36,103 bases of DNA from a virus. Below the pieces are notes generated by a model. That model was not told the DNA's origin. It made no database searches and saw nothing but the letters and a program-made list of their open reading frames with translations. Positions 4,145-7,519 of this stretch are shown here, piece by piece. A program made the position numbers and the translations under genes. The stretch spans positions 1 to 36,103 of IMG/VR virus record IMGVR_UViG_3300006919_000169; one strand, written 5' to 3'. Position 1 is the first letter of the stretch. Each line of letters begins with the position of its first letter.

Positions 4145-4297
4145 ATGACTAAACGTAAAGGTCTATATGCCAACATCGCAGCCAAGCGTAATCGTATCAA
4201 AGCAGGTAGTGGAGAGAAGATGCGTAAGGCGGGTAGCAGTGGCGCACCTTCTAAGGCTAATTTTAAACGTGCATCACAAACAGCAAAGAAGAAGTGA
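4145..4297 (+). CDS. Very basic 50-residue protein
   Basis: MTKRKGLYANIAAKRNRIKA is followed by a Lys/Ser/Gly-rich tail ending in three Lys. I count 11 Lys and 5 Arg against one Glu. I recognise this as a small conserved protein of marine phages and some bacteria with no known function. AAAGG at 4131-4135 provides a ribosome site, and its stop overlaps the next start (TGATG). The charge suggests DNA or RNA binding, or packaging in the head, but that is inference. Confidence 0.7.
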   Translation: MTKRKGLYANIAAKRNRIKAGSGEKMRKAGSSGAPSKANFKRASQTAKKK

Positions 4298-4581
4298 TGG
4301 CACGTAAACCTGACAACATGCCCAAGCGAAACAAGAAGAATTTCCGACCAACCAAGTCGGGAGCAGGTATGACTGAGGCTGGTGTTAAAGCGTATCGTAA
4401 GAAAAATCCCGGAAGTAAGCTGAAGACGGCTGTTACGGGTAAGGTTAAAGCAGGAAGCAAGGATGCAAAACGTCGTAAGTCATTCTGTGCTAGGTCTGCA
4501 GGACAAATGAAGAAGTTTCCTAAGGCGGCTAAAGACCCGAACAGTCGTCTGCGTCAGGCACGTAAGAGGTGGAAATGTTAA
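4297..4581 (+). CDS. DUF6321-like basic protein
   Basis: 94 residues, start overlapping the previous stop by one base. A GTG three bases earlier is possible but less likely. The block SGAGMTEAGVKAYRKKNPGS followed by LKTAVTG, RRKSFCARSAGQMKKFP, KDPNSRLRQARKRWKC matches what I remember as DUF6321, a short family in phages and bacteria of unknown function. Two conserved Cys (in SFCARSAG and the C-terminal WKC) and strong positive charge suggest a small nucleic-acid-binding or metal-binding fold. It overlaps the holin gene by 13 nt. Confidence 0.7.
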   Translation: MARKPDNMPKRNKKNFRPTKSGAGMTEAGVKAYRKKNPGSKLKTAVTGKVKAGSKDAKRRKSFCARSAGQMKKFPKAAKDPNSRLRQARKRWKC

Positions 4582-5350: not shown

Positions 5351-5799
5351 ACATAGACAAGTTAAGAGAAGAGCTAGCCGAAGACGAGGGGTGTAAGTAT
5401 GAAATTTACCTCGACCATCTAGGGTTGGCTACATTTGGAATAGGGCATCTAATAACAAAAAATGACCCAGAGTACGGTAAAAATGTAGGCACTGTCATAG
5501 AACAGGGTCGTGTACAGTCTGCATTTAATCTTGATATCGCTGTTACAATAGAAGACTGTCACAGGCTCTATAAAAACTTCGATGAACTACCCGAAGAAGT
5601 GCAATTAATTGTTGCGAACATGATGTTCAATCTTGGTTATCCGCGTCTGTCCAAGTTCAAGGGTATGAAGGCAGGAGTCGATGCTAAAAGCTGGTCTTCT
5701 GCAGCCGATGAGATGGTTGACTCAAGGTGGTACACCCAAGTCCCTAACCGCGCAAGACGTTTGGTAGATAGGATGAGACAGGTAGGTAGAGATGGCTAA
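5347..5799 (+). CDS. Endolysin, T4-type lysozyme (glycoside hydrolase 24)
   Basis: 150 residues, close to T4 lysozyme (164). The catalytic triad pattern is present: Glu14 in EDEGCKYEIY, Asp23 in LDHLG, and Thr29 in ATFGIGHL. The C-terminal SRWYTQVPNRARRLVDRMR matches the conserved end of the T4 family. It hydrolyses the beta-1,4 bond between N-acetylmuramic acid and N-acetylglucosamine. No signal peptide or SAR segment is visible, so release should depend on the holin encoded upstream. Its ATGA overlap with the previous minigene indicates coupling, and it overlaps the next gene by 8 nt. Confidence 0.9.
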   Translation: MNIDKLREELAEDEGCKYEIYLDHLGLATFGIGHLITKNDPEYGKNVGTVIEQGRVQSAFNLDIAVTIEDCHRLYKNFDELPEEVQLIVANMMFNLGYPRLSKFKGMKAGVDAKSWSSAADEMVDSRWYTQVPNRARRLVDRMRQVGRDG

Positions 5800-5977
5800 A
5801 GCAAAGAGTAAAGTTAATCAAGCTGGTAACTACACTAAGCCTACGATGAGAAAAAGACTATCTATTTTAGACGATGCAGCAATAAGTTTAGAAAAGTCAG
5901 GGTACTATAAACATTTCCCTGAAGACACATATCAATCCCTAGTTATAGAGAGAAGGAAATTATATAATGGCTATTAA
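5792..5977 (+). CDS. Small protein with VNxAGNYTKP N-terminal motif
   Basis: 61 residues. The start overlaps the lysozyme stop by 8 nt and is preceded by GGTAGAG. Residues 8-22 read VNQAGNYTKPTMRKR and match 14 of 15 positions in the protein encoded at 6341-6541. The rest (DDAAISLEKSGYYKHFP and onward) is unrelated to that protein, so the two share an N-terminal module on different bodies. Function unknown. The basic N-terminus could be a targeting or nucleic-acid-binding tag. Confidence 0.65.
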   Translation: MAKAKSKVNQAGNYTKPTMRKRLSILDDAAISLEKSGYYKHFPEDTYQSLVIERRKLYNGY

Positions 5978-6236
5978 CACAACAAGAGCAAAACAAATCA
6001 AGAAAAAATTCCGTAAAAACTATGGCTCAAAGCCAAAAATAACAACATCGGAGATTAAGGGAAGACGTGGGGCAGTTAAGGCTGGACAGAAAACTTACGC
6101 AAAAAAAGATGGAACTATAAGCCGACTAACTCGTGAGCAAACATTACGCACTATGCGAAAGTTAAATCAAACAGCAAAGAATAGACCAAAAACACCTAAA
6201 CGTATTGGTGGTACTACTACGCTAAAGAAGAAGTAA
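5967..6236 (+). CDS. Basic protein of unknown function
   Basis: 89 residues, overlapping the previous gene by 11 nt, with GAGAGAAGGAAA just upstream of the start. Lys, Arg and Thr dominate and acidic residues are rare. The stretch KKKFRKNYGSKPKITTSEIK and the Lys-rich tail have no recognised domain. It is one of a run of tiny basic genes around the endolysin. Its stop shares a base with the start of the SET remnant (TAATG). Confidence 0.6.
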   Translation: MAINTTRAKQIKKKFRKNYGSKPKITTSEIKGRRGAVKAGQKTYAKKDGTISRLTREQTLRTMRKLNQTAKNRPKTPKRIGGTTTLKKK

Positions 6237-6313
6237 TGCCATTTATCGCAGATTCTAAAATACATGGTCATGGTGTATTTGCAGATAAGGAATACTCTAA
6301 GGGTGATACCTAA
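6236..6313 (+). pseudogene. Truncated SET-domain protein, N-terminal remnant
   Basis: A 25-codon frame begins at an ATG overlapping the previous stop (TAATG). It reads MPFIADSKIHGHGVFADKEY then SKGDT and stops. The IHGxGVFA...KGD pattern is the first strand motif of SET-domain lysine methyltransferases, small versions of which (about 120 residues) occur in marine phages. The catalytic regions (NHSCxPN and the final Tyr) are missing. Only about 27 nt separate this stop from the next gene, so the body of the gene has been deleted. It could still be translated, but not as a methyltransferase. Confidence 0.6.
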
Positions 6314-6340: not shown

Positions 6341-6541
6341 ATGGATAAAATAGCCATGAGAAAAGTACCTAAGAAATCTACAGTAAATAAAGCAGGTAAT
6401 TACACAAAACCAACAATGCGTAAACGGCAGTTTAATCGTATTAAAGCTGGAAACAAAGGCGGTGCTTCAGGTCAATGGTCTGCACGTAAGGCACAGATGC
6501 TTGCAGTTGCATATAAGAAAGCTGGTGGCGGTTACAAATAA
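6341..6541 (+). CDS. DUF5872-like N-terminal half (QWSARKAQML protein)
   Basis: 66 residues from this ATG; the ATG at 6356 gives a 61-residue form beginning MRKVPKK that may be the true start, since neither site has a clear ribosome site. It contains VNKAGNYTKPTMRKR, then FNRIKAGNKGGASGQWSARK and AYKKAGGGYK. The GQWSARKAQ...AGGGYK block is what I remember as the first half of DUF5872, a basic family of unknown function in bacteria. The second half appears in another gene at 7277-7519. Small, basic and Cys-free. Confidence 0.65.
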   Translation: MDKIAMRKVPKKSTVNKAGNYTKPTMRKRQFNRIKAGNKGGASGQWSARKAQMLAVAYKKAGGGYK

Positions 6542-6567
6542 TATGCATATCATAAAAGGAGAGGGTT

Positions 6568-7029
6568 ATGATAGCGGAGACAATGGCAGGTATTGCTCTT
6601 GTCAAAGCAAGTGTGGACGGAATAAAGAAAGCCATCACAACTTGTAATGATATAGGCGATATAGCAAAATATATAGATGGCATATTCGAGGGCGAACAGC
6701 AGATACAAAAGAAAAGAAGCAAAGCCCAGAAAGACCCCTTTGCTGTAAACACAATCGCTGAAGAAACCATAAACGCTAAACTTGCACAAGAACATATGCA
6801 AGAAATGAAGAACCTTATTAATATGAGATTTGGGGCTGGTGTTTGGGAAGGTATAATAGCTGAACGTGCTAGGAGAATACACGAGCAGAAGGAAGCGGAG
6901 AAGCAGGAACGCATAGAAAAAAGGCGTAGACATAAAGAGTTTGTACACAACGTAGAAATAGGCGGGCTAGTAGTAGCAGGAGGTTGTGTGGCTATTGCAA
7001 TTATAGTTGCACTAGTAATGTTTTTATAA
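6568..7029 (+). CDS. Coiled-coil protein with C-terminal membrane anchor
   Basis: 153 residues with a strong ribosome site (AAAGGAGAG, 6554-6562). An Ala/Ile-rich N-terminus is followed by a long helical, charged region: AEETINAKLAQEHMQEMKN, then INMRFGAGVW, and a Lys/Arg/Glu-rich coiled coil ending RIEKRRRHKEF. A single hydrophobic helix (about 131-153) closes the protein. I recognise the family from marine phages. A tail-anchored membrane protein next to the lysis genes could be spanin-like or a virion protein, but there is no diagnostic motif. Confidence 0.6.
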   Translation: MIAETMAGIALVKASVDGIKKAITTCNDIGDIAKYIDGIFEGEQQIQKKRSKAQKDPFAVNTIAEETINAKLAQEHMQEMKNLINMRFGAGVWEGIIAERARRIHEQKEAEKQERIEKRRRHKEFVHNVEIGGLVVAGGCVAIAIIVALVMFL

Positions 7030-7034
7030 AAAGC

Positions 7035-7063
7035 TTGCTAAATTTACCTAGAACTTGTATAAT
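7035..7063 (+). promoter_or_regulatory. Sigma70-like promoter inside the late module
   Basis: TTGCTA (7035-7040) and a perfect TATAAT (7058-7063) are separated by the ideal 17 bp in the 54-nt gap between two genes. Transcription would start near 7070, followed by TTTAGGAG (7070-7077) as ribosome site for the gene at 7084. It could raise expression of the tail genes or fire early, before late control is set up. Confidence 0.6.
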
Positions 7064-7083
7064 AGAGTATTTAGGAGTTTATA

Positions 7084-7359
7084 ATGAATTTTGTCTTGGA
7101 TACCCTTAGATACAGGTATAAACACACTGCAGAAAAATCCCTACAAAGAGTCAAAGAACTTATAGTTCAAAAACCAACAGTTTGGGATGATATAGACGAC
7201 GCTCTAGATAAACTGCAGAGAGACGAATCTCGCGAACAAACTTATCAATACGTTCTTAAAATCATGGAGAAGGAAGATGGCGTTAAAGAAGAGCCAACGC
7301 TCTTTGAAAAACTGGACGAAGCAGAAGTGGAGGACGAAGAGTGGGAAACCGTCCAGTAA
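7084..7359 (+). CDS. Small acidic protein of unknown function
   Basis: 91 residues, first gene after the predicted promoter, with AGGAG at 7073-7077. The N-terminal half is basic and helical (YRYKHTAEKSLQRVKEL), the C-terminal half very acidic (KLDEAEVEDEEWETVQ). The last 83 nt overlap the start of the next gene in another frame, so this acidic tail is dual-coded with the next protein's basic start. No family recognised. Its acidic tail next to several basic minigene products raises the possibility of binding one of them. Confidence 0.55.
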   Translation: MNFVLDTLRYRYKHTAEKSLQRVKELIVQKPTVWDDIDDALDKLQRDESREQTYQYVLKIMEKEDGVKEEPTLFEKLDEAEVEDEEWETVQ

Positions 7360-7519
7360 AACTGGAGAACGGTATCTACCGTCAGCAGCTATCAAGAGCC
7401 TCTCGTCGGAGGAGTACGCAGCCACCACGCGTGCTAAACGAAAAGCAACTAAAGCTGGTAAGCAGTTCTCCAAACAGCCTAAAAAGATACGTGATAAAAC
7501 AAGAAAATACAGAAAATAA
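7277..7519 (+). CDS. DUF5872-like C-terminal half (KSQRSLKNWTKQKW protein)
   Basis: 80 residues starting inside the previous gene with GGAAG just upstream. The pattern KKSQRSLKNWTKQKWRTKSG, then ERYLPSAAIKSLSSEEYA and TRAKRKATKAGKQF, is the second half of what I recall as DUF5872 in bacteria, where it follows the QWSARK...GGGYK half in one chain. Here the halves are separate genes about 730 nt apart. Highly basic, no Cys. Function unknown; nucleic-acid binding is a guess from charge. Confidence 0.65.
   Translation: MALKKSQRSLKNWTKQKWRTKSGKPSSKTGERYLPSAAIKSLSSEEYAATTRAKRKATKAGKQFSKQPKKIRDKTRKYRK

Follow-up and report, generated by a model that had tools for sequence, protein, structure and literature searches.

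The window analysed here is a virus record of 36.1 kb that carries two very small genes, A and B, separated by two other genes (Table 1). It raises the question of whether A and B are parts of one protein and, if they are, how they came to lie apart. An earlier note on this DNA had described both ORFs, the conserved block of each and two genes of other types between them, and all of these were found at the positions listed in Table 1. It had further proposed that one protein family, DUF5872, is spread here over two non-adjacent minigenes.

Table 1. Features of the A-B region in the window
Feature	Position	Strand	Description
Hybrid ORF	5792..5977	+	A-type N-block followed by ~40 aa from the C-terminus of a phage protein (~180 aa, phrog_28122)
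25-codon ORF	6236..6313	+	MPFIADSKIHGHGVFADKEYSKGDT*; just 5' of A; candidate truncated gene remnant
Gene A	6341..6541	+	66 aa, pI 11.3; N-block and helical-hairpin module GQWSARKAQ..AGGGYK; phrog_17747
N-block of A	6377..6412	+	STVNKAGNYTKP; present in intact split-type A, absent from A-B fusions
Intervening gene 1	6568..7029	+	153 aa; C-terminal hydrophobic segment; phrog_32327 (E 4.5e-6)
Intervening gene 2	7084..7359	+	91 aa, acidic, pI 4.5; 83-nt overlap with the start of B
Gene B	7277..7519	+	80 aa, pI 11.2; module KSQRSLKNWTKQKWRTKSGK..GERYLP; phrog_14910

Membership of A and B in one family

A and B are clear members of PHROG 17747 and PHROG 14910, respectively: residues 5-66 of A align to positions 2-63 of the 63-position profile (E 3.8e-34) and residues 1-80 of B to positions 1-80 of 80 (E 4.7e-38). 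Searched alone, neither A nor B listed any Pfam family at E<=1, PF19197 (DUF5872) included, and NCBIfam gave no match for either protein or for the fused forms. In a tblastn search of phages, 17 records contained A and 19 contained B, and these were nearly the same phages. Single-chain A-B proteins, with both blocks in the order that the earlier note had given, were read directly at the loci of Pelagibacter phage Hodr and Synechococcus phage S-CRES1 and were found on genome contigs as chromosomal genes of Roseomonas, Sphingomonas and Methylobacterium; fused forms reach the chromosomes of Planctomycetota as well as Alphaproteobacteria.

These fused proteins provide the tie to DUF5872, because they match PF19197 though the halves alone do not. 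At E<=1, 42 of the 64 fused homologues were listed against PF19197 (best E 4.2e-8), a count that refers to this listing and not to a check of each protein against the Pfam gathering cut-off. The Paludisphaera fused protein scored 30.1 bits against a gathering value of 27.5 and covered profile positions 2-101 of 116, which include both halves, and the cut-off was also passed by fused homologues in two alphaproteobacterial genomes. PF19197 describes a single chain of about 116 positions with both blocks in A-B order; the window differs in that its halves are separate genes and in that split-type A carries an extra N-terminal block. The profile check proposed in the earlier note therefore succeeded for the fusions and failed for A and B themselves, and sequence comparison confirms A and B as two halves of a DUF5872-like protein, whereas in the PHROG resource they stand as two distinct families with no assigned function, which are now joined into one. 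In the literature searched, one paper names DUF5872, in a gene table for an algal virus.

Since A and B are small and very basic, their similarity to the fused proteins might be suspected of reflecting lysine-rich composition. We give this practically no credence: tryptophan, tyrosine, glycine and proline motifs are conserved, the alignments are full-length with 50-80 percent identity and the profile E-values lie below 1e-30, so that the motif and profile matches refute it.

The fused chromosomal proteins have long Lys/Ala/Pro tails or a Rho_N/SAP-like C-terminal segment (Roseomonas, L022-L032; Sphingomonas and Methylobacterium, L025-L042), the Rho_N match in some bacterial fusions being sub-threshold. 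The bacterial fused gene has no conserved gene neighbours beyond small clusters of close relatives. In Synechococcus phage S-EIVl (L006, 3046-3700) the same family is cut elsewhere, inside B, with a 76-aa ORF in the gap.

Linkage, spacing and the N-terminal block of the split form

To avoid circularity, linkage was counted from one-sided queries with A only or B only. From A, a B gene was found downstream on the same strand in 77 of 80 viral contigs, and the other three end within 616 nt. From B, an A gene was found upstream in 70 of 80; nine of the ten exceptions have at most 1475 nt of upstream sequence and one has 4358 nt, so that 12 of the 13 exceptions from both queries lie near contig ends. 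A third query, made with A halves of the fused type, returned 42 fused contigs, 31 split ones and 4 that are cut, and left the picture unchanged. The co-occurrence across marine phages that the earlier note had suggested as a check is thus found, and wherever the genes are separate their order is A then B. Both proteins are under purifying selection, with median dN/dS values in phages of 0.16 (A) and 0.107 (B).

The spacing of the halves is far less constant than their order. The non-adjacency described in the earlier note holds in the window and is not general, since A abuts B in most cultured relatives. The stop codon of A and the start codon of B overlap in 95 of 219 split loci, by one base in 74 (TAATG) and by four bases in 15, and the gap exceeds 60 nt in 115 of the 219, the whole range extending from overlap to 2.7 kb. 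Because 95 of the 219 pairs overlap with nothing between the genes, the split would have come first and the intervening genes later. Entry of these genes into an already split pair is therefore most likely, and of the earlier proposal that insertion split an ancestral gene only the split itself is favoured (see below); insertion as the first step is rejected on account of the many pairs that abut or overlap.

The A-B gaps hold about 59 ORF families, and their cargo includes the Rieske-type oxygenase alpha subunit of HMO-2011, an endonuclease VII and a methyltransferase. Intervening gene 1 of the window belongs to the family numbered 1 in our clustering, which comprises 27 intervening ORFs, and its phrog_32327 relatives also adjoin B in HMO-2011 and CRP-1. 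Intervening gene 2 belongs to family 15, which has members in loci L216 and L248 as well. The end of this very acidic ORF shares its nucleotides (7277-7359), in another frame, with the start of the very basic B. Among known systems, the HMO-2011-type phages (PMC9038755) share with the window A, B, neighbouring genes and the presence of an A-B interval; the interval of HMO-2011 differs in also holding a gene annotated as methanesulfonate monooxygenase, which the window lacks. This gene is the Rieske-type oxygenase (L004, 2735-4504), and members of its ORF family were observed in the A-B interval of three other contigs (L218, L223 and L240). In HMO-2011-type phages the A-B interval is thus a site of cargo-gene uptake, a metabolic gene included.

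The split form is also marked by a block resembling VNKAGNYTKP (VNxAGNYTKP) at the start of intact A. We found this N-block in 191 distinct split-type ORFs and in none of 89 fused ones; the only two split A proteins without it are that of S-EIVl and a contig-truncated copy. Among the approximately 500 loci, the only other protein with an N-block is the hybrid ORF of the window, and no further N-block-only ORF was found. The hybrid copy differs from the N-block of A at 18 of 57 nt compared; silent sites are saturated and few residues are changed, and on this basis the peptide looks conserved.

A reversed fusion in SAR11

The same two modules occur in the opposite order, B then A, in one ORF of six SAR11 single-cell genomes. 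Of 297 sampled genomes of the SAR11 family, 14 have this permuted gene as an uninterrupted ORF of 138-142 aa with no stops, and split copies are present in a few further genomes. In most carriers the permuted gene is flanked by SDR and TspO genes in a setting that is chromosomal; the two split copies examined on SAR11 contigs lie among phage genes, with terminase or peptidase M15. A median dN/dS of 0.115 shows that the B-A fusion, which the earlier note had not described any more than the split-specific N-block, is under purifying selection. In trees computed without the N-block columns, whose root is not certain, the permuted clade received support of 100/100 and was nested in the split part, and the permuted protein retains the YTKP stretch of split-type A.

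Circular permutation by fission and fusion is known in the nicotinamide nucleotide transhydrogenases, and separate halves in relatives are the evidence usually cited for it (PMC3320104). The present family resembles the transhydrogenases in having its halves as separate genes, in one order and in reverse order; it differs in where the forms reside, most split copies being in phages and prophages and the permuted gene in a bacterial chromosome. With the reverse domain order in one conserved ORF, and separate halves in pelagiphages and in SAR11 prophages, the SAR11 protein is best explained as a circular permutant that would have arisen by fission and then re-fusion in the other order. It is unlikely, we think, that it arose instead by tandem duplication of an A-B unit and loss of the outer halves. 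That route would also yield B then A with the N-block kept within the chain, and one tandem copy of an overlapping A-B pair would be enough; however, no A-B-A-B intermediate was noticed in about 500 loci, which were surveyed without a dedicated test for it, and related phages and SAR11 prophages do have separate halves, the kind of evidence usually taken to indicate fission and fusion (PMC3320104).

The N-block, which appears only when A is separated from B, could be read as a docking peptide that makes up for the loss of the covalent link between the halves. SAR11 might then have domesticated a pair of prophage genes and turned it into a permuted protein of the host, with the N-block at the B-A junction. 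We regard this combined reading as tentative, and it is more probably wrong than right.

Direction of change and the role of the two domains

The trees imply a minimum of seven architecture changes, and a single split clade had an AU p value of 0.07 and was not formally rejected. In loci L074, L169, L175 and L008 the A half groups with fused proteins and the B half with the B of split phages, which suggests that B modules may have been exchanged between the forms. Given the seven state changes, the AU result and the different grouping of the A and B halves of some fusions, it is not certain that fission took place only once. We nonetheless favour fission of a fused ancestor over the joining of minigenes, since both Pfam DUF5872 and the deepest relatives that we found are single chains, although the root is not proven.

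In the opposite scenario, A and B were first separate, neighbouring phage minigenes, and fusion later produced the single chains now seen in bacteria, cyanophages and giant viruses. The root of the tree is not secure, the state changes more than once and the fused Hodr-type clade falls within split pelagiphage copies, all of which would fit this order of events. However, the single chain of PF19197 spans both halves, fused forms extend to the chromosomes of Planctomycetota and Alphaproteobacteria, among the fused forms checked, the A halves cluster with those of other fusions, and S-EIVl illustrates that a fused-type gene can be split. We therefore consider that minigenes came first with low probability and retain fission of a fused ancestor.

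Structure models and coevolution bear on whether the halves touch each other, as the earlier note had suggested. The fused model reached a pLDDT of 90.3 with a pTM of 0.62 and the permuted model 83.4 and 0.66; the latter has the same secondary-structure elements in swapped order, and both match the same viral models. A fold search of the PDB returned no resembling solved structure, its one match (E 6.4) being meaningless. In 303 sequences (Neff 97), the top 20 couplings all fall within a domain, with no convincing inter-domain signal. Physical interaction of the halves is thus not borne out by the couplings, which stay within each half, or by the pTM, and the pLDDT of 90 next to a pTM of only 0.62 suggests that A and B are two small, separately folding domains.

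Phage A, phage B and a phage fusion all have a pI of about 11, and a late role in association with nucleic acid is plausible for these basic proteins, though with no resembling solved structure the function is a guess. The Sphingomonas fusion is much less basic (35 K+R versus 25 D+E), which weakens a purely charge-based role on DNA. That A and B act jointly is a weaker proposal, to which linkage and fusion point. A and B may instead be independent small basic proteins that travel in a late operon, so that fusion and permutation reflect neighbourhood and not joint function. The lack of inter-domain coupling and the modest pTM of the fused model despite its pLDDT agree with this, as do the many other small basic genes that crowd the region and an A-like domain that apparently stands alone in a ParB/Sulfiredoxin protein. 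Linkage is nevertheless kept over gaps of up to 2.7 kb while the intervening genes turn over, and there are two single-chain orders, both conserved; we hold independence to be a minority possibility and keep joint action as a tentative part of the preferred reading. The protein with the A-like domain is an uncultured phage protein of 1022 aa (BFVD A0A6J5PCY7), in which the domain shows 52 percent identity across 48 columns and B seems to be missing.

Taken as a whole, we favour, with fair though not high confidence, a scheme in which one DUF5872-like protein had its gene cut at the domain boundary in marine phages and was re-fused in reverse in SAR11. The ancestral A-B gene would have undergone this fission in a marine phage lineage, split-type A would have gained its N-terminal block, and translational coupling through TAATG or ATGA would balance the two products. 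In SAR11 the pair would then have been joined again, now with B first, probably following carriage in a prophage, and this would give the circular permutant. Within this scheme, support is strongest for fission followed by reverse fusion; contact between the halves and their function are inferred. More weakly, the two small basic domains may act jointly in the same cell as a late, nucleic-acid-associated phage accessory in genome handling or packaging, a job for which it may be irrelevant in which order the domains are covalently joined. The ocean of today contains this small family in fused, split, split-with-cargo and permuted forms together, so that the steps of circular permutation by fission and fusion can be traced in living lineages; the family also connects SAR11 with phages that are abundant in the sea.

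Two further ORFs of the window lie upstream of the pair. The 25-codon ORF, whose sequence we took to resemble a SET domain, gave no Pfam match over its 25 aa and was rejected as a SET-domain remnant; it is possibly a truncated gene start or remnant. The gene at 4294-4581 encodes a DUF6321 protein (51.5 bits, cut-off 28.5), a family that also forms the C-terminal part of several large phage PHROGs.
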